Positions 52,813 through 64,000 of a stretch of DNA of 64,000 nucleotides are shown one piece after another. The notes below the pieces were generated by a model. It saw nothing but the letters and a program-made list of their open reading frames with translations, did no database searches and had not been told where the DNA came from. The DNA is from Streptosporangiaceae bacterium (GTDB lineage Bacteria; Actinomycetota; Actinomycetes; Streptosporangiales; Streptosporangiaceae), in contig JAICYD010000013.1 in assembly GCA_025934375.1 (NCBI GenBank), positions 1 to 64,000 of the forward strand, given 5' to 3'. The translations under genes and the position numbers were made by a program. Each line of letters opens with the position of its first letter. Position 1 is the first letter of the stretch.

Positions 52813-54999
52813 TCAAAGCAAGGTCAGCTGCTCGTGCGCCGGCGGCGCCGGGGCCGGGGCGGGCGCGGGCAGCCGCGGGATGCCGCGCGCGTCGCGGTTC
52901 GCGCTCTGCTGGCGGGCCGCCCAGGCGCGGCCGACGCCGTAGCGCTCGGCCAGGTCGCGGACCTGCGCGGCGATCCGCGCCTGGTAGGCCTTCGGCGCGT
53001 AGGCGCCGCGCCCGTATAGCTCGCCATAGCGGGGGAGCAGCTCGGGATGGGCGGTGCGCAGCCAGGACAGGAACCACTCGCGGGCCCCCGGGCGCAGGTG
53101 GAGCACGATCGGCGTGACGTGCGCCGCGCCCGCGTCGGCGATCCGGCGGATCGCCGCCTCCAGCTGGGCGGGGGAGTCCGACAGGTACGGCACCACCGGC
53201 CCCATGAGCACGCCGCACCGCAGGCCGTTATCGTTGAGCGTCGCGCAGGCCTCCAGGCGCCGCTCCGGCGCCGGCGTGCCCGGCTCGATGGCCCGCCATA
53301 GCGACTTGTCGACAAACCCCGCCGACACGTTCAGCCCCACGTCGGTCACCTGCGCCGCCTCCAGCAGCAGGTCCAGGTCCCGCAGGATCAGCGTCCCCTT
53401 GGTCAGGATCGAGAACGGGTTGGCCGCGTCGCGCAGCGCCGCGATGATCCCGCGCATCAGCTCATAGCGCCCCTCGGCGCGCTGGTAGCAGTCGACGTTG
53501 GTTCCCATCGCGATGTGCTCGCCGCCCCACGACGGCGAGGCCAGCTTGGCCCGCAGCAGCTCCGGCGCGTTGACCTTGACGATGACCTTGGAGTCGAAGT
53601 CCTGGCCCGCGTCCAGGTCCAGGTACGTATGGGTGCTGCGCGCGAAGCAGTTGTGGCTCACCACCCCGTTCGCGATGAAGTCCCCGGTCCCGGTCGTGAT
53701 GTCGTACATCGGAACCTCAAGCCCGAGCGGCTCGATCGAGGCGACCTTCAGCTTGGCGTCGCTCTTGATCGCGACCCCGTCGATGCTCCGCTTGCGGGTG
53801 ATCGCCGGGTCGGTCGCGTGGAAGAACCGCATGACCTCCCGCAGCCCGCCCCGCAGGCGCACCCCGGCGAGGCCATTGCCGGTCCGGGTCGGCTCCAGTG
53901 CGTACGTGAAGCCAAGTGAGTCCAGCGCCCGGGTGGTCCACTCGATGATCTGCGGGTCGGCGTCGCGCAGGCGCCAGATGCTCCGGCTGCAGCTTCCCTC
54001 AGCGTCGAAGACGCCGGCCAGGAATCCCTTGTACCAGTCGGGGGTCGGCTCCGCCGGCCAGCTGATCAGGTGCAGGATCGTGTCCGCCCAGCCGCGAGCA
54101 CTCGCCCGAATCGCCCGCACCTCCCGGCGCTTGTCGATCGCCGGTGAGCAGCCGGACTCGTCGGTGGGCACCCCGAAGGTCGTCCCCAGGTAATCGCGGG
54201 CCCGGGTGAGCGCCTCCGCGTCCGCCGGGGCGAGGCGGAACCGCCAGGCATCGCCGGACGCGTGGCTATAGCTGCCGTGGTGACCGTCGCCGCGGATCAT
54301 GCCGCACAGGTAGCCGCGCCGGTAGTCCACGCAGTCCTTCGGGCTCTCGGCGAAGCCGCCCATGCCCATCAGCTTGATGTTGACCGTCAGGAACGGGCGC
54401 TGCGCCGGGCCCTGCCCGGCTCCGGTGACATGCTTCCATCCGCGCTCGGACAGGAACCGGTGGTCGCCGCTGGCGACCAGCTGGGTGCCGTCCTCCAGCG
54501 TGATCCGGTAGGCGGGCTTGACCGTGGACCAGTGCGCGAGCACTGTCGTGACCGTGTAGTGCCGGTAGAAGCCGCCCTTGACAGTGCCGTAGATCTGGTC
54601 GCCAACCCTGACATCGGCGAGCGCCTTTGTGCGCCCATCAGCCATGAGGATCGGCGTATCCCCACCTTGGCAGTAGGCGCAGGCATGCTGGCATCCCCGG
54701 TAGGGGTTGATCGTCCAGCGGAAGGACATGCGGGAGGCGGGCGGGACGTGGCTGACGATGGACTTGGCGTGGATCTCGTAGAAGGTCATGCCGCGGAAGC
54801 CCGGGGTGTCGAAGGTGCGGGTCACCGCGTTGCGGGCGAACAGCGGCGGCTCGGGCAGGCTGGCGGGCGGCACCGCGACTCCGGCGCTGCCGGTGCCGGT
54901 GCCGCAAGTCCCGCCCGTGCCTCCCCCGTCTGTACTGCCCCGGTCTGTGCCGCAGGTTCCGTCGGGGGCGTCGTCGATTCGCAGGCTGTCCCAGCGCAT
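52813..54999 (-). CDS. Rv2578c-family radical SAM protein interrupted by an intein
   Basis: A 728-residue precursor. The extein parts (residues 1-109 and 451-728) form an Rv2578c-like radical SAM protein. The iron-sulfur motif CxxxCxxC is GCQHACAYC before the insertion and is completed only after splicing, which joins ACAY to CFARSTHTYLD. The C-terminal part carries GTNVDCYQRAEGRYELMRGII and TLNDNGLRCGVLMGPVVPYLSDS. ATG 54999 (MRWDSLRIDD) matches the family start; an open stretch to 55035 does not. A Gly/Thr-rich segment (residues 14-40) is variable. The function of the family is unknown. Confidence 0.9.
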   Translation of the reverse strand: MRWDSLRIDDAPDGTCGTDRGSTDGGGTGGTCGTGTGSAGVAVPPASLPEPPLFARNAVTRTFDTPGFRGMTFYEIHAKSIVSHVPPASRMSFRWTINPYRGCQHACAYCQGGDTPILMADGRTKALADVRVGDQIYGTVKGGFYRHYTVTTVLAHWSTVKPAYRITLEDGTQLVASGDHRFLSERGWKHVTGAGQGPAQRPFLTVNIKLMGMGGFAESPKDCVDYRRGYLCGMIRGDGHHGSYSHASGDAWRFRLAPADAEALTRARDYLGTTFGVPTDESGCSPAIDKRREVRAIRASARGWADTILHLISWPAEPTPDWYKGFLAGVFDAEGSCSRSIWRLRDADPQIIEWTTRALDSLGFTYALEPTRTGNGLAGVRLRGGLREVMRFFHATDPAITRKRSIDGVAIKSDAKLKVASIEPLGLEVPMYDITTGTGDFIANGVVSHNCFARSTHTYLDLDAGQDFDSKVIVKVNAPELLRAKLASPSWGGEHIAMGTNVDCYQRAEGRYELMRGIIAALRDAANPFSILTKGTLILRDLDLLLEAAQVTDVGLNVSAGFVDKSLWRAIEPGTPAPERRLEACATLNDNGLRCGVLMGPVVPYLSDSPAQLEAAIRRIADAGAAHVTPIVLHLRPGAREWFLSWLRTAHPELLPRYGELYGRGAYAPKAYQARIAAQVRDLAERYGVGRAWAARQQSANRDARGIPRLPAPAPAPAPPAHEQLTLL
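53650..54672 (-). mobile_element. Intein with LAGLIDADG homing endonuclease
   Basis: A 341-residue in-frame insertion. The first residue is a cysteine (CQGGDTPILMADG), block B is LVASGDHRFL, and the end is NGVVSHN followed by Cys +1, so both splice junctions look functional. Two LAGLIDADG dodecapeptides are present, YLCGMIRGDG and FLAGVFDAEG, each with its acidic catalytic residue, suggesting active homing. Insertion occurs exactly at the third cysteine of the host's radical SAM motif: the intein Cys1 takes its place and the +1 Cys restores it after excision. Confidence 0.9.
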
Positions 55000-55229
55000 G
55001 CTTGACAGGATAGAACGACTATTCGATGATAGCAAACATCTGTTCGTACCCGCTGGGTGGGGTGATGTTGTGGTTGCCGTGTGAGGCGGCCGTGAACGCG
55101 GGCCGCGGCCCGCTCCGGCGGGGTCTGAAAACGGCCGGGAACAAACTAAGAACGATTGGATAAACCTCCCGCCGTGGGGGATAGTTAGAGAGTTCCCAAC
55201 TGGCGCGCGGAACGCGGAGGTATGGCGCT

Positions 55230-55526
55230 ATGGCGCTGTCGATGGACGAGCAGCGCATGCTCGCCGAGATTGAGCGGCGGCTTGCCGCGGAGGACCCGGG
55301 CCTGGCGACCCGGCTGTCCTCGTTCAGGCGCCGTCCCGGCCCGACGGCCGGACTGCGCACCCCCCGAGGCCGGATCATCCTGCTCGTGGGCATGCTGTCG
55401 CTGATAGCGGTGATCTCCGTCGTGGTCTACGTGCTAGCTCCGTTGCGCCCGGCGAAAGCGCCGAGTACCCCGCAGACCGCCCATCCCGCCGTCATCGTTC
55501 AGGGCAACGACAACGCGGCACCGTAA
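55230..55526 (+). CDS. DUF3040 membrane protein
   Basis: A 98-residue DUF3040 protein: MALSMDEQRMLAEIERRLAAEDPGLATRL at the start, then one membrane segment (about residues 51-70, ILLVGMLSLIAVISVVVYVL) and a short polar tail ending GNDNAAP. The family is confined to actinobacteria and of unknown function. GGAGG precedes the start. The 230 bases upstream contain no other gene. Confidence 0.85.
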   Translation: MALSMDEQRMLAEIERRLAAEDPGLATRLSSFRRRPGPTAGLRTPRGRIILLVGMLSLIAVISVVVYVLAPLRPAKAPSTPQTAHPAVIVQGNDNAAP

Positions 55527-55619
55527 GGGCCGTAGACCCCCAGCGATCGACAGCAGGTATCAGGCAGCGCGAGCCGTGGCGAGCGCCAGCACGGACAATT
55601 ACCCCATGGATGGTTATTC

Positions 55620-55683
55620 GCGCTGTCTGTGAGACGCGCTGTCTGTGAGGCGCGCAGTCTGTGAAACCCGCTGTCCCTGAATG
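55620..55683. repeat. Four tandem 16-base repeats
   Basis: Units begin GCGCTGTCTGTGAGAC (55620), GCGCTGTCTGTGAGGC (55636), GCGCAGTCTGTGAAAC (55652) and CCGCTGTCCCTGAATG (55668). The first three differ by one to three bases; the fourth is degenerate. They lie between DUF3040 and a converging gene. Confidence 0.75.
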
Positions 55684-55701
55684 GTGCCCCCGCCGGAAAG
55701 G

Positions 55702-56220
55702 CTAAGAGTCTCGCCAGAGCTGGACGAGGTAGCGCTCGACGCCTTCCAGCTTGCGCTTCTCGCGCTGGAAGTCGTCGCTGAGCGGGTCACGGTGCTGGTT
55801 GAACAGATCGGCGTACATCCGCACGACCGCTTCGCGGTAGCGGGCGTACACCCGCACCTCGTAATTGCCGACGCCGCCAGATAGCCGAAGCCGCTGGACC
55901 GCCATGCCCGCCGAGCCCATGTCGACCGACACCTGGCCGCGCAGGTACAGGCGGGCCTTGGCCTCCTCCTCCCAGGCGTCGGGCAGCAGCGGCTGGCCGT
56001 CCCATTCCTCGAGCACGAGCCGGACGTCGACGTCCTGCTGCAGGCTGCCCACCCACAGCTGCTCGCGGCTCGTCGAGATCAGCGCGCCGACCGGCGGCAA
56101 CGGGCTGCCGGGGGCGTCCGGGGTCACCTCGGGGTCATGGATGTGGAACATGCGGCGGTCCGGAAAGACCGGCATGACGAGCTGCAGTAGCCTGCGGCTC
56201 ACGTATCCCCCATCTGGCAC
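55702..56220 (-). CDS. Hypothetical protein
   Basis: A 172-residue soluble protein (or 166 from the GTG at 56202, which has GGGGGA upstream). It opens SRRLLQLVMPVFPDRRMFHIHDPE and ends LEGVERYLVQLWRDS; the middle has REQLWVGSLQQDVDVRLVLEEWDG and YEVRVYARYREAVVRMYADLFNQHRD. I do not recognise a family. Codon use is typical of the region, and it lies divergent from an MFS exporter gene. Confidence 0.65.
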   Translation of the reverse strand: MPDGGYVSRRLLQLVMPVFPDRRMFHIHDPEVTPDAPGSPLPPVGALISTSREQLWVGSLQQDVDVRLVLEEWDGQPLLPDAWEEEAKARLYLRGQVSVDMGSAGMAVQRLRLSGGVGNYEVRVYARYREAVVRMYADLFNQHRDPLSDDFQREKRKLEGVERYLVQLWRDS

Positions 56221-56319
56221 ACTGCAAATTTAAACCGCTGCCACTCGCCGCGCAGGCAGAATGACTGTCGAGAATTTATTGAACACTATCTGTGACGCTA
56301 TTGACTACAGTCTGCATCT

Positions 56320-57960
56320 ATGGGACGTTATATCCGTAACATCACGACGGATCCCCCCGGATGGTGCTCAATGCGGTCGGCTGCTGCTGCCCATGATCAG
56401 CTACCTAACGTTCCGCATAAGCTACAATTTGTAACAAAGGGTCGCGGGGGAGATCCCGGAGCCGGGCAGGCCATCCGGCCGGCGCCGGCGCGGGCGGCGG
56501 ACAGGCAGGTCCCACCGGGCGGGAACCTGGTGCCCGGGGGCTCCTCCGGTAACGGAGCCGCGATCGGCTCCGGAAAGCGCGCGGTGGTGCTGGCGGTCTG
56601 CTGCAGCGCGCTGTTCATGGTGGGCCTGGACAACACCATCGTCAACGTCGGGCTCCCCGCTATCGGGCAGAGCCTGCACACCACCGTGGCCGGCCTGCAG
56701 TGGACCGTCGCCGGCTACACCATCGTGCTGGCCAGCTTGCTGATGTTCTCCGGCGCCGCCGCCGACCGGATCGGCCGCCGGGTGATCTTCCAGGTGGGCC
56801 TGTCGCTGTTCACCCTCGGGTCGTGGCTGTGCAGCCTCGCCCCCAGCCTGGGCTGGCTGATCGCGTTCCGCTTGCTGCAAGGCGCGGGCGGGGCGATGCT
56901 GAACCCGCCCGCGCTGGGCATCATCACGAACACGTTCACCCGGCCCGCCGAGCGCGCCCGGGCGATCGGGGTGTGGGACGGCGTGTTCGGCCTGTCGATG
57001 GCGCTGGGCCCGGTGCTCGGCGGCATCCTGATCGGCACCGTCGGCTGGCGCGGCATCTTCTGGGTCAACATCCCCGTGGGCCTGGCGGCCATCTCGCTGA
57101 CCGCGCTGTTCGTCCCCGACTCGCGTGCCCCCAAGGGCCGCAAGGCCGACCCGGTGGGCCAGTTCCTGGTCATCGTGATGCTCGGCTCGCTCGCCTACGC
57201 GATCATCCAGGGGCCGGAGTACGGCTGGACCTCGCCGAAGATCATCGCGTTCTTCGCGCTGTCGGCCGCGGCGCTGGCCATCTTGCTGGCCTACGAGCCG
57301 CGCCGCGAGGAGCCACTGGTCGACTTCCGGCTGTTCCGCAGCGTCCCGTTCGCCAGCGCCAACCTGGTCGCGATCTGCGCCATCGCGGCGACGGCGGGCT
57401 TCTTGTTCCTCACCAGCTTGTACCTGCAGGACGTGCGCGGCTACAGCGCGGTGCGCGCGGGCCTGACGATCTTGCCGATGCCGGCCGCGATGGCGCTGTG
57501 CGCGCCGCTGTCGGGCCGGATGCTGGCCCGCTCGGGCTCGCGCGGCCCGCTGGTCATCGCGGGCACCGCGCTGACCTTGTCCAGCGCCGCGCTGTCGCAG
57601 CTCACCGACTCCTCGACGATGACCTTCCTGATCATCACCTACGCGCTGTTCGGCGTCGGCGTCGGCATGGTCTCCTCGGCGATCACCAACACGTTCATGT
57701 CCGGGGTGCCGAAGTCGCAGGCGGGCGTCGCGTCCGGGATGAACTCCGCGAGCCGCCAGCTGGGGACCTCGCTCGGCGTCGCGATCGTCGGGTCGGTGCT
57801 GGCGGCGTCGCTGCGCGGCTCGATGCACGCCGGGTTCCTGACCGCCGCCCATCCGGGCTGGTGGGTGATGGCCGGCTGCGGCTACGCGGTCCTCCTGCTC
57901 GGCCTCATCTCAACGACCCAGTGGGCGCGGATGACAGTCAGCCGGGTCCGTTCTGAGTAA
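56320..57960 (+). CDS. MFS drug exporter (DHA2, 14-TM)
   Basis: A 546-codon frame encoding an EmrB/QacA-type major facilitator. Motif A is GAAADRIGRRVIFQVG (about residue 148), and motif C-like AIGVWDGVFGLSMALGPVLGGIL lies at about 220. About 14 hydrophobic segments fill residues 85-540. The N-terminal 80 residues are hydrophilic and lack family character, so the true start probably lies downstream of 56320; no strong ribosome site decides. Proton-driven efflux of hydrophobic drugs is likely. It is outside the cluster, though it could help resistance. Confidence 0.85.
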   Translation: MGRYIRNITTDPPGWCSMRSAAAAHDQLPNVPHKLQFVTKGRGGDPGAGQAIRPAPARAADRQVPPGGNLVPGGSSGNGAAIGSGKRAVVLAVCCSALFMVGLDNTIVNVGLPAIGQSLHTTVAGLQWTVAGYTIVLASLLMFSGAAADRIGRRVIFQVGLSLFTLGSWLCSLAPSLGWLIAFRLLQGAGGAMLNPPALGIITNTFTRPAERARAIGVWDGVFGLSMALGPVLGGILIGTVGWRGIFWVNIPVGLAAISLTALFVPDSRAPKGRKADPVGQFLVIVMLGSLAYAIIQGPEYGWTSPKIIAFFALSAAALAILLAYEPRREEPLVDFRLFRSVPFASANLVAICAIAATAGFLFLTSLYLQDVRGYSAVRAGLTILPMPAAMALCAPLSGRMLARSGSRGPLVIAGTALTLSSAALSQLTDSSTMTFLIITYALFGVGVGMVSSAITNTFMSGVPKSQAGVASGMNSASRQLGTSLGVAIVGSVLAASLRGSMHAGFLTAAHPGWWVMAGCGYAVLLLGLISTTQWARMTVSRVRSE

Positions 57961-57963
57961 AAG

Positions 57964-58188
57964 TCAGCCACATCCGCAGCCGCCGCCGCAGCAGCCACCA
58001 CCACCACCACCGGACGGCATGGCCTGGCCGCCGCGGGAGGCCACCCCGGAGACCGCGACCGTCGATAGCAGCTTGACGGTGTCGTCGTGGCCCTGGGGGC
58101 AGGCGCACGGGGCGGAGGACTCGCTCATCGGGCGAGTCATCTCGAAGGTGTCGCCGCAGGCGCGGCAGCGGTATTCGTATCGGGGCAC
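57964..58188 (-). CDS. FmdB-type zinc ribbon protein
   Basis: A 74-residue protein. It opens VPRYEYRCRACGDTFEMTRPM with the CxxC zinc knuckle, a second cysteine pair in CACPQGH, and a Gly/Cys-rich tail (SGGGGGGCCGGGCGCG). GTG 58188 is the family start; the frame is open to 58281 without matching. FmdB-like proteins may be transcriptional or assembly factors. It converges with the MFS gene, leaving three bases between stops. Confidence 0.85.
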   Translation of the reverse strand: MPRYEYRCRACGDTFEMTRPMSESSAPCACPQGHDDTVKLLSTVAVSGVASRGGQAMPSGGGGGGCCGGGCGCG

Positions 58189-58198
58189 GACGCCGATT

Positions 58199-60094
58199 CT
58201 ACTCGCAGGTCCCGGTTTTGGCCGGGGAGCGCTCTCCGGTTCCCGGCCGGCCGGCACCGTGCCCATTCCCGCCGTGCCCATTCCCGCCGTGCCCGTTGCT
58301 GGCGGCTGCGTTCAGCGGGCGCCCGTTCGGGTGGCCGGCGGGCGCCGGCCGCGGCGCGGAGGGGGTCACGTTCAGCGCGGCCGCGACGGGGCCGGCTTCC
58401 CGTGCCGCCTGCAGTTCCTCGGCCTGCGGGGCCTGCGCGCGGACGGGCTTGCCGCGCAGCAGCGAGACGATCGCCCCGATGACCGACATGATCGCGGCGG
58501 CGGTGAACACGATCATCAGGCCGTGGTGGAACGGGCCGGAGATGAGGGTGGGGAAGAACTGGTTGCCGGTCAGCACGGCGACCGAGTGCGGCGGGAGCGT
58601 GCTGAGCAGGCCGGTCGGGTCGAGCAGGTTGTGCACCGGGTTGTAGCCGAGCATCGCGGCGAACACGGTGGACACCGGCGGCAGGTGGGCGATCGAGGAC
58701 GCGGTCGCCAGCGGGACGCCCTGGGAGGTCAGCCCGGCGGTCAGGGTGCGCGGCAAGGTGTTGGCCAGGCCCGCGATCATCAGCGAGAAGAAGACGCCGA
58801 TGGACAGCGACATGCCGGAGTTCTGGAACGTGGAGCGCATCCCGGAGGCCGCGCCCCGGTGATGGGCGGGGACGCTGGACATGATCGCGGCCGTGTTCGG
58901 CGCGGCGAACAATCCCGAGCCGACCCCGTTGCCGAAGATGAGCACCGCGAAGGCCGGGTACGGGAAGTCGACCGGCAGCAGCATCAGCCCGGTGAAGCAG
59001 CAGGCGGCCAGGAGCAGGCCGCCGGTCGCGAACGGGCGCGCGCCGAACCGGTCGCTCAGCGTCCCGGAGATCGGCCCGGCGATCAGGAACCCGGCGGTCA
59101 GCGGCAGCATGTAGATGCCCGCCCACAGCGGGGTCTGCTCGAAGTCGTAGCCGTGCAGCGGCAGCCAGATGCCGGCCAGCCAGATGACCAGCATGAACTG
59201 CAGGCCGCCGCGGGCGATCGAGCCGAGCAGGCTGGCGACGTTGCCCGCCGCGAACGCGCGGATGCGGAACAGGCCCATCTGGAACATCGGGTCGGTGATC
59301 TTCGTCTCCACCACGCAGAAGGTGGCCAGCAGCGCCACCCCGCCGGCCAGGCCGCCGATGACCAAGGGGTTGCCCCAGCCGGTGGCGGACGTCCCGTAGG
59401 GGCGGATGCCGAAGGTGATCGCGGTCAGCAGCATTGCGGCGCCCGCCGCGAACAGGAGGTTGCCGACCCAGTCGATGCGCGCCTTGCGGGTGACGGCCAG
59501 CTCGCGCAGGCTGACATAGGCCCACACCGTGCCGAACAGCCCGATCGGCACGTTGATCCAGAAGATCAGGCGCCAGTCCCACTCGGCCAGCAGGCCGCCC
59601 AGCAGCAGGCCGACGAACTGGCCGGAGATGCCGGCGACCTGGTTGACGCCCAGCGCCATGCCGCGCTTGTTGGCGGGGAACGCGTCGGTGAGGATGGCGG
59701 CGGTGTTGGCCATGAACATCGCGCCGCCGAACGCCTGCACCATCCGCCAGGCGATCAGCCAGAGCGCGCCGCCGGGGCCGGTCAGCGGGTCCAGGCTGAG
59801 GGCGATCGACGCGGCGGTGAACACGACGAACCCGAGGTTGTAAATGCGCACCCGGCCGAAGATGTCGCCCAGCCTGCCCAGCGTCACGACCAGCACGGAC
59901 TGCACCAGCAGGTAGCCGATGATCATCCACAGCAGGTAGGTGACGTTACCGGGGGTCAGCGGGTTCAGGTGGATCCCGCGGAAGATGGCGGGCATCGCCA
60001 CGATGACGATCGAGGCGTCGATGGTCGCCATCGTCATGCTCAGCGTGGTGTTCGACAGGGCCACCCATTTATAGCGCTCAGATAGTTGTGCCAC
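58199..60094 (-). CDS. MFS drug exporter (DHA2, 14-TM), long C-terminal tail
   Basis: A 631-residue EmrB/QacA-like transporter. The first membrane segment is at about residues 10-30 (WVALSNTTLSMTMATIDASIVIV), with motif A GRLGDIFGRVRIYNLGF (about 72) and a long cytoplasmic tail after residue 560 rich in Ala, Pro, Asn and Gly with a repeated NGHGGNGHGG. The start is GTG 60094, with CATAAT only a few bases upstream, so the message may be leaderless. An inverted repeat overlaps the start codon, suggesting repression by a TetR/MarR-type protein. No such regulator is adjacent. Confidence 0.85.
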   Translation of the reverse strand: MAQLSERYKWVALSNTTLSMTMATIDASIVIVAMPAIFRGIHLNPLTPGNVTYLLWMIIGYLLVQSVLVVTLGRLGDIFGRVRIYNLGFVVFTAASIALSLDPLTGPGGALWLIAWRMVQAFGGAMFMANTAAILTDAFPANKRGMALGVNQVAGISGQFVGLLLGGLLAEWDWRLIFWINVPIGLFGTVWAYVSLRELAVTRKARIDWVGNLLFAAGAAMLLTAITFGIRPYGTSATGWGNPLVIGGLAGGVALLATFCVVETKITDPMFQMGLFRIRAFAAGNVASLLGSIARGGLQFMLVIWLAGIWLPLHGYDFEQTPLWAGIYMLPLTAGFLIAGPISGTLSDRFGARPFATGGLLLAACCFTGLMLLPVDFPYPAFAVLIFGNGVGSGLFAAPNTAAIMSSVPAHHRGAASGMRSTFQNSGMSLSIGVFFSLMIAGLANTLPRTLTAGLTSQGVPLATASSIAHLPPVSTVFAAMLGYNPVHNLLDPTGLLSTLPPHSVAVLTGNQFFPTLISGPFHHGLMIVFTAAAIMSVIGAIVSLLRGKPVRAQAPQAEELQAAREAGPVAAALNVTPSAPRPAPAGHPNGRPLNAAASNGHGGNGHGGNGHGAGRPGTGERSPAKTGTCE

Positions 60095-60103
60095 GACAAC
60101 TAT
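60082..60103. promoter_or_regulatory. Operator-like inverted repeat over the exporter start codon
   Basis: ATAGTTGT (60082-60089) and ACAACTAT (60096-60103) form a perfect 8+8 inverted repeat with a six-base spacer, spanning the GTG start at 60094. The candidate -10 (CATAAT on the minus strand, about 60108-60103) touches it. A further GATCG-TTAG-CGATC palindrome lies next to it, upstream. Confidence 0.6.
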
Positions 60104-60227
60104 TATGATCGCTAACGATCTGAGGGGCGAGCTCGCCTTTCTTACGCTGAGCGTTAGTTCGAGTTACCCGCCGGGCCGCAGCGGTAGGCCCAGGGGCGAG
60201 CGGCTTGTGCTCGTCCCCTGGGGAGGG

Positions 60228-60278
60228 GGCAAGGGGGGCTTCCCCCTTTGCCGGGGGTCGGCAGGGGGCTCGGCCCCC
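60228..60278. repeat. G-run palindromic repeat, copy 2
   Basis: GGCAAGGGGGG-type arm (60228-60238) against CCCCC-TTTGCC (60242-60252), then GGGGGCTCGGCCCCC (60264-60278). It is built like copy 1 (AAGGGGGG...CCCCCCTT followed by a second G-run hairpin). It lies at the 3' end of the aldehyde dehydrogenase gene and could act as its terminator. Confidence 0.5.
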
Positions 60279-60282
60279 GGGG

Positions 60283-61749
60283 TCATACAGGAGGGAGGAA
60301 CACCGACTTGGTGGTGAGGTAGGAGTCCATGCCCTCGGGGCCGTAGGCGACCCCCTGCCCGCTCATCCCGCGACCACCCCACGGGGAGCCGATGTCGGGG
60401 ACGTACAGGTTGATGCCGAACGTGCCCACCCGGGTCCGGCGGGCGATGTCCAGGCCGCGCTGGGGGTCTTCGGTCCAGACGGTGGCGGCCAGGCCGAAGC
60501 CGTCGTTGGCGAACGCGATCGCCTCGGCCTCGTCCCGGTAGGACAGCACGCTCGCGACCGGCCCGCAGATCTCGTCCTTGGCGATCGCCATGGCCGCCGT
60601 GACGTCGGTGAGCACGGTCGGCTCGTAGTAGTACCCGCGCACCGGGGAGGAGGGGCGCCTGCCGCCGGCGGCGATGCGCGCCCCGTCGGCGACGCCGGCC
60701 CGGACCCGGCCCTCGACGTCGGAGCGGCGGCGCGCGGAGGCCATCGGGCCCATCGTGGTGTCCTCGGCGAGCGGGTCGCCGATCACGAACTTGGAGGCGT
60801 GCGCGGCCAGCGCGTCGACGAACTCATCATGGCGCTGCTCGGGCACCAGCACCCGGGACATCGCGAAGCACGTCTGCCCGGAGTTGCTGAAGCACAGCAG
60901 GCCCAGGCTGGCGGCGGTCTTGTCGAGGTCGGCGTCGTCGAGGACGATGGCGGCGGCCTGCCCGCCGAGCTCCAGGCTCGCGGGCTTGAGCTCGGCTCCG
61001 CAGATCGCCGCGATGCGGCGTCCCTGCGGGGTCGGGCCGGAGAACGCCACGGTGTCGACGCCAGGATGGCGGGCCAGCATGCTGGCGGTCTCGTGCGTGC
61101 CGGTGACCAGGTTGAAAACGCCCGGCGGGAAGTCGGCGGCCTCGAACGCCTCGGCCAGGATGTAGGCCGACAGGCTGGTCGCGGCGGCCGGCTTCAAGAC
61201 GATGGTGCACCCGGCCGCCAGCGCCGGGGCGAGGTGGCAGAAGGCCAGCATCAGCGGGTAGTTCCAGCTGGCGATCACGGCGGCGACCCCGGCCGGCTCG
61301 CGGCGGACCATGGTCCGGCCCGCGAAGCTGACGGCGTCGCGGGTCTCCTCGGTGCCGAGGCTCCGGGCCAGGCCCGCGTAGTAGCGCAAGATCGCGCACG
61401 GGGCGGCGGCGTTGTTCTGCCGGGAGTAGGCGATCGGCATGCCCATCTCGGCGGTGACCAGGCGGGCCGCGTCCTCGGTCCGGGCCTCGATGGCCGCCGC
61501 CAGGCGCTCCAGCGCGGCGGCGCGCTGGGCGGGGTCGCCGGTGGCCCAGTGGCCGTCGTCGAAGGCGCGCCGGGCAGCGCGGACGGCGTGATCGACGTCG
61601 GCGCTGACCGCCGACGGCACCGCGCCGACGATCTCTTCCGAGGCTGGGTTGACAATCGTGATGACGTCCGTCGACGCAGAACCGACTAGTCGCCCTCCCG
61701 CATAGATGTCGCGATACTCAAGCAATGCTCGCGCTTCCTTCCAGGACAT
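60283..61749 (-). CDS. NAD(P)-dependent aldehyde dehydrogenase
   Basis: A 488-residue ALDH-superfamily enzyme. The NAD-binding segment is IASWNYPLMLAFCHLAPALAAGCTIVLKPA (about residues 160-190), the general base Glu lies in KPASLELGGQAA (about 256-267), and the nucleophile Cys lies in FSNSGQTCFAMSRV (about 290-303). It oxidises an aldehyde to an acid, of the betaine-aldehyde or retinal dehydrogenase type. Start ATG 61749. The substrate is unknown, and no neighbouring pathway suggests one. Confidence 0.9.
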   Translation of the reverse strand: MSWKEARALLEYRDIYAGGRLVGSASTDVITIVNPASEEIVGAVPSAVSADVDHAVRAARRAFDDGHWATGDPAQRAAALERLAAAIEARTEDAARLVTAEMGMPIAYSRQNNAAAPCAILRYYAGLARSLGTEETRDAVSFAGRTMVRREPAGVAAVIASWNYPLMLAFCHLAPALAAGCTIVLKPAAATSLSAYILAEAFEAADFPPGVFNLVTGTHETASMLARHPGVDTVAFSGPTPQGRRIAAICGAELKPASLELGGQAAAIVLDDADLDKTAASLGLLCFSNSGQTCFAMSRVLVPEQRHDEFVDALAAHASKFVIGDPLAEDTTMGPMASARRRSDVEGRVRAGVADGARIAAGGRRPSSPVRGYYYEPTVLTDVTAAMAIAKDEICGPVASVLSYRDEAEAIAFANDGFGLAATVWTEDPQRGLDIARRTRVGTFGINLYVPDIGSPWGGRGMSGQGVAYGPEGMDSYLTTKSVFLPPV

Positions 61750-61787
61750 GAAGGTGCCTGATTATTTGCGCGCCCGATGCGGATCTG

Positions 61788-62153
61788 TCAAGTGCTGGTA
61801 ACCCGAGAGGTTGCCCGAAGCCGGGCTACAGTGGCCCTGAGCTGCTGGATTTCCTCCTGGAGGACGAGCTCTCGCTGGGTGGGGCCTTCCTGCGCGGCCT
61901 GCCGGCGCTCCCGGTCGGCGCGCTCGCTGACCTCCTTCAGCTCCGCGATCTCCCGCAGCCTGGTCACCTCCCGGTAGAGGTTGTCGATCGCCTCGGCGGT
62001 ACTGCCGGGGGGTACGGGGGGTCGCCCCCCCGTACCCCCCGGGCGGAAGCAGCCGGGCTCCTGAGCGAGGACCGCGCCGCAGCCCGGGCAGCGCGCGACG
62101 TGCCGGGGCGCGGCTGGCTGCGCGTTGTGGCCGGGCTTGGGCTGATCCGTCAT
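61788..62153 (-). CDS. Small zinc-ribbon/coiled-coil protein
   Basis: A 121-residue protein with an N-terminal CPGCGAVLAQEPGC zinc knuckle (about residues 22-35), a proline/glycine stretch encoded by the G-run palindrome at 62007-62040, and a C-terminal coiled coil (IDNLYREVTRLREIAELKEVSERADRERRQAAQ onward). The start, ATG 62153, gives the family-like MTDQPKPG; the frame is open to 62291. I recognise no family. The coiled coil suggests oligomerisation or a partner role. Confidence 0.65.
   Translation of the reverse strand: MTDQPKPGHNAQPAAPRHVARCPGCGAVLAQEPGCFRPGGTGGRPPVPPGSTAEAIDNLYREVTRLREIAELKEVSERADRERRQAAQEGPTQRELVLQEEIQQLRATVARLRATSRVTST
62007..62040. repeat. G-run palindromic repeat, copy 3 (inside a coding region)
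   Basis: GGGGGG-TAC-GGGGGG (62007-62021) pairs with CCCCCCC-GTA-CCCCCC (62025-62040) around a three-base loop: a 15-pair stem with one bulge. It lies inside the small zinc-ribbon gene and encodes its Gly/Pro linker. Confidence 0.7.
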
Positions 62154-62354
62154 GCCGTGAGTGTCCCCCAGCTTGAGGTGCGGTGCATCGTTGTCCAGGC
62201 CAAACAACCGGGGAAGCCCGCTGTGCGGGCGCACAGTCGGCTGAGCTGTTGCCATGCGCGCTCCGGGGCATGGACTTCCGTCATCCAACAACGCCGGTTA
62301 AGCTCCCTTTGTGGCGTACCACAAAGGCACAGACCAGTCATCGACGTATAGTTC

Positions 62355-63719
62355 GTGATCATGCCGGACACGCTGCCGGCCGCGGGCCGGCTCACTGACG
62401 CGCCGACTCCCAGGGAAAGCCCTCGGGACGTCGACCGGGAGAACGCTGTCCTTCGCGAGCTGGTGACCATCTACCGCCACCTCTCTGGCCTCGCGATGCA
62501 GGACGCTGACCTCGCCGGAGTCGTGCAACTGATCTCCGAGCGCGCCTCGGCCACCGTCGCGGTGGTCAGCCAGCTCATGGACGTGATGACCGCCGCCTCG
62601 CCGGGCCTGGGCCCGGACAAGGCCGCCGCGCTGGTGCGCGAGCAGGTCGTCCATCCCCGGCTGGGGCAGGTCCTGCGCGCCTCCCGGCTATCGCAGCGCG
62701 CCCTGCGGCTGCCCAATGTGGGCGGGGTCCCGGCGATCATCGTCGCGCCGATCCTCGTCGGCGATGAGGTCCCCTCGTACCTGATCACCTTGGACCCGGC
62801 CGAGGAGAACTTCAGCGAGGACATGTCGCTGCTGGTCACCGAGCACGCCGCAACCATCTGCGGGGTCATCTTGGGCCGGGAGCGAGTGGTGGCCGCCGCC
62901 GCCCGCCGGGTTCGCGACGACCTCGTCGAGGGCCTGCTGCTCGGCCGCGGCCGGGACGTCGGCGATGCCGCGCGGTGGGCCGCCCATCTAGGGTATGACG
63001 CCACCCGCCAGCACCAGGTGGCGGCGATCGCGTTCGAGCTCCCGCCCGCCCGGGCCGCGGACGCCGATGCCCTGCGGGCGCGGATCCGGGAGTCCATCGA
63101 GCACTTCATGACGACCCGGGCGCCCGAGGCGATCGTCTCCGCCCGGGAGGCGGAGGTCGTCGTGGTGGCCGCCGCGTCGCCCGACCCGCGCCGCCTGGGC
63201 CAGGCGTGCCTGGCCCGGCTGGCCGAGCTGTTCCCCGGCGCCAAGGTGGTCATCGGGATCGGCGGGCAGTGCCGGGACCCGCAGGAGATCGCCCGTTCCT
63301 ACGACCAGGCGCACCGCACCACCCAGACGCTATGGCGGCTGGGCCGGGCCGGCGCGGTGGCCGCCTTCGAGGACCTGGGCATCCACCGGCTGCTGCTGCA
63401 GGTGCCCGACCTCGGCGAGCTCCGCTCGTTCGCCGCCGAGGTGCTCGGCAAGCTGAGCGAGCACGAGCATGAGCACAAGTCGGAGTACCTGGCCACCCTC
63501 GCCTGCTACTTCCGGGAGAACAACAGCCCGCAACGCGCCTCCCGGCTGCTGCATGTCCACCCCAACACGGTGGCCTACCGGATCAAGCGGATTGAGGAGA
63601 TCACCGGGCTCAAGCTGGACAACTATCGTGACAGGCTGATAGCGCAGGTCGCCCTGGAGATCCTGGACGCCTTGCCTGAGCCCGCTAGTTCGACCGAGTC
63701 CCTGAGGGAGCGCTCATGA
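62355..63719 (+). CDS. PucR-family transcriptional regulator with GAF-like domain
   Basis: A 452-454 residue regulator. The N-terminal half (residues 20-180) is a GAF-like sensor (ENAVLRELVTIYRHLSGLAMQDADLAGVV; IIVAPILVGDEVPSYLITL), a middle cyclase-like domain follows, and the C-terminal PucR helix-turn-helix has LACYFRENNSPQRASRLLHVHPNTVAYRIKRIEEITGL (about 385-420). The start is GTG 62355 or ATG 62361. Such proteins sense metabolites and control catabolic or secondary metabolism genes. Its stop overlaps the next gene by ATGA, so it is co-transcribed with the methyltransferase gene. The target is unknown. Confidence 0.85.
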   Translation: MIMPDTLPAAGRLTDAPTPRESPRDVDRENAVLRELVTIYRHLSGLAMQDADLAGVVQLISERASATVAVVSQLMDVMTAASPGLGPDKAAALVREQVVHPRLGQVLRASRLSQRALRLPNVGGVPAIIVAPILVGDEVPSYLITLDPAEENFSEDMSLLVTEHAATICGVILGRERVVAAAARRVRDDLVEGLLLGRGRDVGDAARWAAHLGYDATRQHQVAAIAFELPPARAADADALRARIRESIEHFMTTRAPEAIVSAREAEVVVVAAASPDPRRLGQACLARLAELFPGAKVVIGIGGQCRDPQEIARSYDQAHRTTQTLWRLGRAGAVAAFEDLGIHRLLLQVPDLGELRSFAAEVLGKLSEHEHEHKSEYLATLACYFRENNSPQRASRLLHVHPNTVAYRIKRIEEITGLKLDNYRDRLIAQVALEILDALPEPASSTESLRERS

Positions 63720-64000
63720 GCCTCGTATCGGATGTGCTATCAGGTCAGCGCGTCCTGGTCTGCGACGGCGCGATGGGCACCTTGCTGCACGCGGCGGGCG
63801 CCGCCCTGGACCGGTCGCTGCCCGAGCTGAACCTCTCCGACCCGGGGCTGGTGGCCACCCTCCACGACAGCTACCTGGATGCCGGGGCGGACATCATCCA
63901 GACCAACACGTTCGGCGCCAACCGGCTGTGGCTCGGCGACCACGGGTTCCCCGACAAGGTCGAGGAGATCAACCGGGCCGGGGTGCGGATCGCGCGGGCG
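63716..64000 (+). CDS. Homocysteine S-methyltransferase domain protein, partial
   Basis: The first 95 codons of a gene that runs off the window. It begins MSLVSDVLSGQRVLVCDGAMGTLLHAAG and continues LPELNLSDPGLVATLHDSYLDAGADIIQTNTFGANR, the N-terminal barrel of homocysteine methyltransferases, either free-standing or fused to methylenetetrahydrofolate reductase. The zinc cysteines lie beyond the window. ATG 63716 overlaps the PucR gene stop. Coupling of a PucR regulator to this enzyme suggests a link to methionine or one-carbon metabolism. Confidence 0.85.
   Translation, partial: MSLVSDVLSGQRVLVCDGAMGTLLHAAGAALDRSLPELNLSDPGLVATLHDSYLDAGADIIQTNTFGANRLWLGDHGFPDKVEEINRAGVRIARA

Follow-up and report, generated by a model that had tools for sequence, protein, structure and literature searches.

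A class 1 intein with a LAGLIDADG endonuclease at the third CX3CX2C cysteine of an Rv2578c family radical SAM gene

An intein that interrupts the cysteine motif of a radical SAM enzyme raises the question of whether it is a parasite that the site suits or a regulator that the host maintains. Such an insert occupies positions 53650-54672, minus strand, of the window, meaning the whole 64,000-nucleotide stretch analysed here, positions 1 to 64,000 of contig JAICYD010000013.1 from a Streptosporangiaceae bacterium. The interrupted gene belongs to the Rv2578c family of radical SAM proteins. The insert is very probably a class 1 intein that is mobile, encodes a LAGLIDADG endonuclease and homed into this gene at the third cluster cysteine.

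The insert and its host gene

The insert is free of stop codons, is 341 amino acids long and translates as a class 1 intein that begins C-Q-G-G-D-T-P-I and ends G-V-V-S-H-N. Host and intein form a single open frame, 52813-55035 on the minus strand, whose upstream end in the mechanical open reading frame call is a TTG at 55035; the host start is likely the ATG at 54997-54999. At the N-terminal junction the host residues R-G-C-Q-H-A-C-A-Y precede Cys1, and at the C-terminal junction the terminal H-N is followed by C-F-A-R-S-T-H. The intein sits between the codon of the -1 tyrosine and the codon of the third cysteine of the host CX3CX2C motif. The features are as follows.

52813..54999, minus strand: host gene, Rv2578c family radical SAM, intein-interrupted (NF038135, NF038136, Pfam Radical_SAM; start inferred)
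53650..54672, minus strand: class 1 intein, full length, LAGLIDADG endonuclease, 341 amino acids (translation, profiles, alignment, AlphaFold2/Foldseek)
54358..54672, minus strand: N-terminal splicing region, residues 1-105, with blocks A and B (alignments; borders approximate)
54460-54462, minus strand: His71 codon, block B (alignments)
53788..54357, minus strand: LAGLIDADG homing-endonuclease region, residues 106-295 (Pfam LAGLIDADG_3; gone from 21 mini-inteins; borders approximate)
54283..54312, minus strand: LAGLIDADG motif 1, YLCGMIRGDG, acid D129 (sequence; D in 81/85 full-length inteins)
53995..54027, minus strand: LAGLIDADG motif 2, GFLAGVFDAEG, acid E225 (sequence; D/E in 77/85 full-length inteins)
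53650..53787, minus strand: C-terminal splicing region, residues 296-341, end His340-Asn341 (sequence and alignments)
54670..54672, minus strand: Cys1 codon, splicing nucleophile, at the third cluster cysteine place in the precursor (sequence and alignment)
53647..53649, minus strand: Cys+1 codon, third cluster cysteine of the host and second nucleophile (sequence and alignment)
54679..54681, minus strand: host Cys(-3) codon, second cluster cysteine, possible disulfide partner of Cys1 (sequence and alignment)
54691..54693, minus strand: host Cys(-7) codon, first cluster cysteine (sequence and alignment)

By sequence, Cys1 stands in for the third cluster cysteine before splicing, and afterwards the host Cys+1 would fill the same place. 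The motif after predicted splicing, C-QHA-C-AY-C, conforms to the radical SAM CX3CX2C pattern, and the third cysteine, at the insertion point, is expected to be an iron-sulfur cluster ligand of the host. The residues that place the insert in class 1 are all present, namely Cys1, block B S-G-D-H with His71, the penultimate His340, and the terminal Asn341 followed by cysteine. Both LAGLIDADG motifs are there with their acids, D129 and E225.

A preliminary description of this DNA had placed an intein with intact LAGLIDADG motifs at 53650-54672 and at the third cluster cysteine, with Cys1 replacing that residue and Cys+1 restoring it on splicing. The boundaries proved exact to the base at both the Cys1 codon (54670-54672) and the Cys+1 codon (53647-53649). 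The insertion point is borne out by the junctions and by 42 of 42 empty homologues, which align through it, and the exchange of residues holds at the sequence level, as does the integrity of both motifs. A mutated Asn/His block had been named as grounds for refutation; the block is intact.

The combination of host and intein is already catalogued as NCBIfam NF038136 (rSAM_Rv_intein), the intein-containing Rv2578c family radical SAM protein, against which the whole protein scores 802.3 bits (cut-off 700, E = 3e-241). The host part scores 482.1 bits against NF038135 (cut-off 430), the precursor 42.6 bits against Pfam Radical_SAM (cut-off 29.5), and the intein alone 29.1 bits against Pfam LAGLIDADG_3 (cut-off 22.5). 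The scores of the intein alone against Pfam Intein_splicing (28.2 bits, cut-off 35.8) and TIGR01445 (20.5 bits, cut-off 24.5) are significant yet under the cut-offs. When the window's own genome was searched with Pfam Intein_splicing, the sole matches listed were the DnaB inteins of contig C85, and the present intein was not among them. The gene concerned (L293, 7500-12500 of that contig) reads as a DnaB replicative helicase and is interrupted twice, by an intein that follows the P-loop motif and by another that precedes a later conserved serine.

An AlphaFold2 model of the precursor (52954-54882, 31 sequences) has a mean predicted local distance difference test score (pLDDT) of 83.9 and a predicted template-modelling score (pTM) of 0.56; pLDDT falls below 50 in the cluster motif loop (63-67) and at the start of the C-extein (413-420). 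Foldseek places the TliVMA intein, PI-PfuI and PI-SceI among its first 12 matches (E 1.7e-14 to 2.7e-10), and I-DmoI ranks below those 12 by local fit.

A dead remnant, in which splicing has been lost and the host has become a pseudogene, is scarcely credible. The N-extein is weakly constrained, with a ratio of nonsynonymous to synonymous change (dN/dS) of 0.34-0.48 over 65 codons in three congener pairs, as a decaying gene might show. However, the frame is open throughout and all catalytic residues are intact, on which grounds a dead remnant was rejected, and in the same three pairs dN/dS is low, 0.07-0.20, for the splicing parts and the C-extein.

Occupancy, exchange and decay

For a homing intein, the cycle would run on two levels. 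In the DNA, alleles without the intein would be cut by the endonuclease at a near-invariant site and would receive a copy of the intein during repair. In the protein, Cys1 would attack the Tyr-Cys1 peptide bond, the host Cys+1 would then take over the chain, and Asn341, aided by His340, would cyclise, whereupon the exteins would join and the cluster motif would be whole. Splicing, DNA cutting and inactivity of the precursor are predicted here from general knowledge of inteins. Such a site would suit a parasite because the host can hardly mutate it and imprecise deletion would break the enzyme, and because the host supplies the +1 cysteine that the splicing chemistry needs.

The preliminary description had proposed surveying how often this site is occupied in Rv2578c homologues, and the survey found the intein in a minority of hosts. 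Within the genus, the host gene is present in seven of eight genomes, the window's own included, and three of these seven carry the intein. One congener (G002) has two intein-free host copies (L007 and L010), with 77% and 61% identity to the window C-extein. Among 394 genomes of the class, NF038136 is above cut-off in 31 and the NF038135 host in 158, so that intein occupancy is about one fifth of the host-bearing genomes sampled. With the window intein as query, 33 of the 394 match at E 1e-8, one of them (G283) in another host gene. NF038135 matches 3 of 14 control genomes, none above cut-off.

A scan of named genomes returned at least 555 relatives. The best 80 were kept, and as best matches to a full-length query they under-represent mini-inteins. 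Their hosts include Micromonospora, Geodermatophilaceae, Conexibacter, metagenome-assembled genomes of Beta- and Gammaproteobacteria, and Omnitrophota. Relatives thus hold the same cysteine site in several phyla. In Micromonospora, all 10 genomes tested have a full-length copy, and one adds a weak second match to the host part only. Five non-typical hosts were tested; three (L169, L146 and L191) are above the cut-off of the PA0069 family, L150 is just under it (338.8 of 360), and L153 passes no cut-off. In the open-licence literature searched, no intein report was found on Rv2578c, radical SAM with LAGLIDADG, spore photoproduct lyase, DUF5131 or Micromonospora mini-inteins.

The 80 loci and 34 others make up 114 intein-bearing loci, aligned without sequence patterns; the same locus occurs twice in four cases, and the duplicates (L121, L124, L144 and L188) are still counted. 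Cysteines were counted from this alignment, since earlier patterns had required or preferred them. Cys-7, Cys-3 and Cys1 are present in 112 of the 114 loci, the others being L126, where a contig end leaves the region uncovered, and L137, which is out of frame at the N-junction. Cys+1, His71, His340 and Asn341 are present in all 114; the scan patterns for the 80 include His71 or the C-terminus, so only the other 34 are an unselected sample for those residues. In L148 and L182 the insertion site is, by alignment, the same as in the window. All 42 empty hosts examined have the three cluster cysteines (L112 was checked by alignment), and the DNA of 41 empty alleles is near-invariant at the site, TAC^TGCTTCGC, with at least 93% agreement at each base.

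Divergence within the genus is out of step between intein and host. The window intein differs from that of congener G004 at 137 of 1020 aligned bases (13.4%), being 18.0% in the endonuclease, 9.5% in the N part and 3.6% in the C part, whereas the exteins differ at 35 of 999 (3.5%; C-extein 2.8%, N-extein 5.9%; Fisher P 2.5e-16). Three stretches of 55706-64000 are 3.1-3.7% different. Within the intein, the proportion of synonymous differences is 0.24 for the N part, 0.29 for the endonuclease and 0.12 for the C part; for the exteins it is 0.06 (C-extein) and 0.11 (N-extein). Because intein and exteins diverge so unequally, the two inteins were not simply inherited together. On a plain reading of these sequences, all or most of each intein would have been gained independently by the two lineages or exchanged between them after they split. 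Trees of host and intein agree weakly (Spearman 0.21 over 104 rows); they are quick trees with few resolved forks, made without the four duplicates and compared without the short hosts L164 and L190. Sporadic occupancy and this discordant divergence are indirect signs that intein-free alleles may be cleaved. So patchy a distribution, with exchange, is more in keeping with a parasite that homes than with a regulator that the host maintains.

Decay was compared across 106 inteins (72 of the 80 named-genome loci and the 34 others). Full-length inteins number 85, of which 77 keep both LAGLIDADG acids and 8 have lost at least one. The remaining 21 are mini-inteins of 146-166 amino acids from which the endonuclease domain is gone. 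States of a homing cycle are seen across the family as intact, acid-lost and domain-lost inteins. On the intein tree, the mini or full-length label needs five changes, at least two of them by starred branches.

Several observations weigh against homing as the full account. The stretch just upstream of the gene, 54999-55700, is 9.9% different from G004. So strong a contrast between intein and host comes from that one congener pair. It narrows when the window is compared with G001, a more distant congener, where the synonymous proportions are 0.58 in the N part, 0.55 in the endonuclease and 0.39 in the C-extein. Because the C splicing part is only 3.6% from G004, exchange may have covered less than the full intein. 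Five of the six comparisons have the endonuclease as the least constrained intein part (dN/dS about 0.25-0.42, versus 0.12-0.18 for the N splicing part). Part of the excess divergence could reflect faster evolution, but the raised synonymous differences argue against this as the whole cause. The history is also partly vertical, because the weak agreement of the trees still beats all permutations (0 of 300 reach Spearman 0.21); host and intein histories are mostly discordant with some vertical signal. Finally, all 12 host-bearing genomes sampled from genus g54 carry a 152-amino-acid mini-intein that forms one starred clade, and a purely selfish element without an endonuclease need not show such uniform retention.

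This last point, together with the block B histidine and HN that all 21 mini-inteins keep, could be taken to mean that lineages with only mini-inteins retain the element for a benefit that comes from splicing the enzyme slowly or conditionally. Such domestication is improbable. The window intein is not of the mini type, the g54 picture comes from the species sampled, and retention can be explained without benefit. As argued in PMC2814812, an intein that stops splicing breaks the protein of its host, and its removal must be precise, so that persistence needs no benefit. A homing element, decayed to various degrees elsewhere in the family, remains the preferred account.

Gating by oxidation or by the cluster

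The position of Cys1 raises a further possibility, which the preliminary description had put forward as a switch of the host by oxidative conditions. Under oxidising conditions, a disulfide between Cys(-3) and Cys1 would block the first splicing step, and the enzyme would mature only in a reducing cell. The arrangement that this needs, Cys(-3)-A-Y-Cys1, is present in the window precursor, and disulfides are known from two other inteins. MoaA is a radical SAM protein. A native disulfide between Cys-3 and Cys1 is reported to control the intein of Pyrococcus abyssi MoaA (Callahan et al. 2011, as cited in PMC3922620). The Mycobacterium smegmatis DnaBi1 intein is inhibited by H2O2, and its catalytic cysteine forms a disulfide (PMC6195587).

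The alignments give no sign that this chemistry has been selected. All 42 empty hosts have Cys(-3) too, so finding it in the precursor does not point to a selected switch; it was rejected as evidence, being constrained by the host in the way that a cluster ligand should be. Among the non-catalytic intein cysteines, none is common to all inteins. The best candidate, Cys123, is present in 59 of 86 filled rows. It too was rejected, since it lies in LAGLIDADG motif 1 and is absent from mini-inteins, 20 of 21 of which have no cysteine except Cys1. A conserved cysteine pair beyond what the host and the chemistry demand, our own standard for a selected switch, was not found in the intein and empty-host alignments. 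Occupancy is sporadic, and the motif loop is modelled with pLDDT below 50. Since no other cysteine is general, any general gate would use residues that the host and splicing already demand. Redox gating is therefore unlikely here. It is plausible as chemistry, but no selection for it is visible in these sequences, and the switch proposed for the host is left with that plausibility, the shared precursor cysteines all being catalytic or host cluster residues.

An iron-sulfur cluster or loose iron may bind Cys-7, Cys-3 and Cys1 before splicing and mask the nucleophile, in which case cluster supply or loss, and not disulfides alone, would switch splicing. Such binding would be possible because Cys1 stands at the third ligand place and the CX3CX2C spacing is kept in the precursor. 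It is very unlikely to be what the intein does; if it were, the related inteins that hold the third-cysteine site in hosts of the Rv2578c, PA0069 and DUF5131 families would be natural iron-sulfur-responsive inteins.

Relatives in other genes and known systems

Distant relatives interrupt DUF5131-type genes. Inteins in such genes of genome G283 (L081) and of a Streptomyces plasmid (NZ_CP129127, L282) are 28-29% identical to the window intein over full length and 56% identical to each other; the DUF5131 assignment by Pfam was made on L081 alone. The insertion site is before the last cysteine of a C-X6-C-X2-C stretch. At the same site, a Streptomyces plasmid-or-chromosome record (NZ_CP109486, L292, 2501-2605) has a broken intein start followed by unrelated sequence. 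In a class sample of 384 genomes, G283 is the only one with the DUF5131-type intein, the other 9 of 10 matches being intein loci already counted. Empty DUF5131 relatives are common on plasmids, where 342 records cover 80% or more of the joined query. Among the 20 matches listed, 19 cover it in full. The gene on NZ_CP129127 (1839-3674 of L282) has no feature in the PLSDB table and adjoins the three-Cys-motif partner gene tcmP. Three haloarchaeal plasmids (L289, L290 and L291) encode LAGLIDADG proteins that are related to the DUF5131 intein, have no Cys1 and are apparently free-standing endonucleases.

In viruses, a contig scan with query A1 gave 80 weak matches, and the C-terminal junctions identified are nearly always HN followed by T-R-W, in hosts that we take to be terminases; no intein at the radical SAM site was seen among the junctions found in these matches. 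The viral contig scan with query P0003 gave no match. Among phage records, terminases are found among the matches listed for query P0003, and query P0002 returned three records. Virus Rctr197k (KX853510, L281, 792-4061) has a protein annotated 'radical SAM protein-like' that reads as a helicase interrupted by a distant relative of the intein, and the annotation probably takes its name from that insert. Bacillus phage SP-15 (L283, 1674-3293) has a 'hypothetical' protein with an intein-like insert that starts with cysteine and ends HN followed by C.

The intein in the window looks intact and belongs to a widespread kind in which a cluster ligand serves as the +1 residue. It is of value as a test system: across actinobacteria a single host gene occurs with full-length, decayed or mini-inteins and also empty, in some cases in named, culturable strains, and full-length alleles are found in other phyla too. 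With this allele series one can ask whether oxidants or iron affect splicing at an iron-sulfur cysteine, and why mini-inteins outlast loss of the endonuclease.

Of the systems already described, NF038136 is the nearest, with the same host family and an intein in the same stretch of the model, and nothing essential is different, except that related inteins are also found in PA0069 (L169, L146 and L191) and DUF5131 hosts that miss its cut-off. What is added to the catalogued kind is the survey, the evidence of exchange within the genus, the PA0069 and (for a distant relative) DUF5131 sites, and the mini-intein lineage. Inteins of the PI-PfuI and PI-SceI type share the architecture of intein plus LAGLIDADG endonuclease, and the first 12 Foldseek matches are of this kind, but they have 12-16% identity, other host genes and longer chains, and their global superposition on the precursor model is poor (root mean square deviation about 15 A, template-modelling score 0.19-0.36). 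In the P. abyssi MoaA intein, Cys(-3) likewise precedes Cys1; the host is archaeal and of another family, and the disulfide is stated to be native there and is a possibility here. DnaBi1 (PMC6195587) is likewise a catalytic-cysteine intein in an actinobacterial gene and a precedent for control by oxidation, but it belongs to class 3, and its partner, Cys48, is internal, whereas the general partner candidates here are the cluster cysteines of the host.

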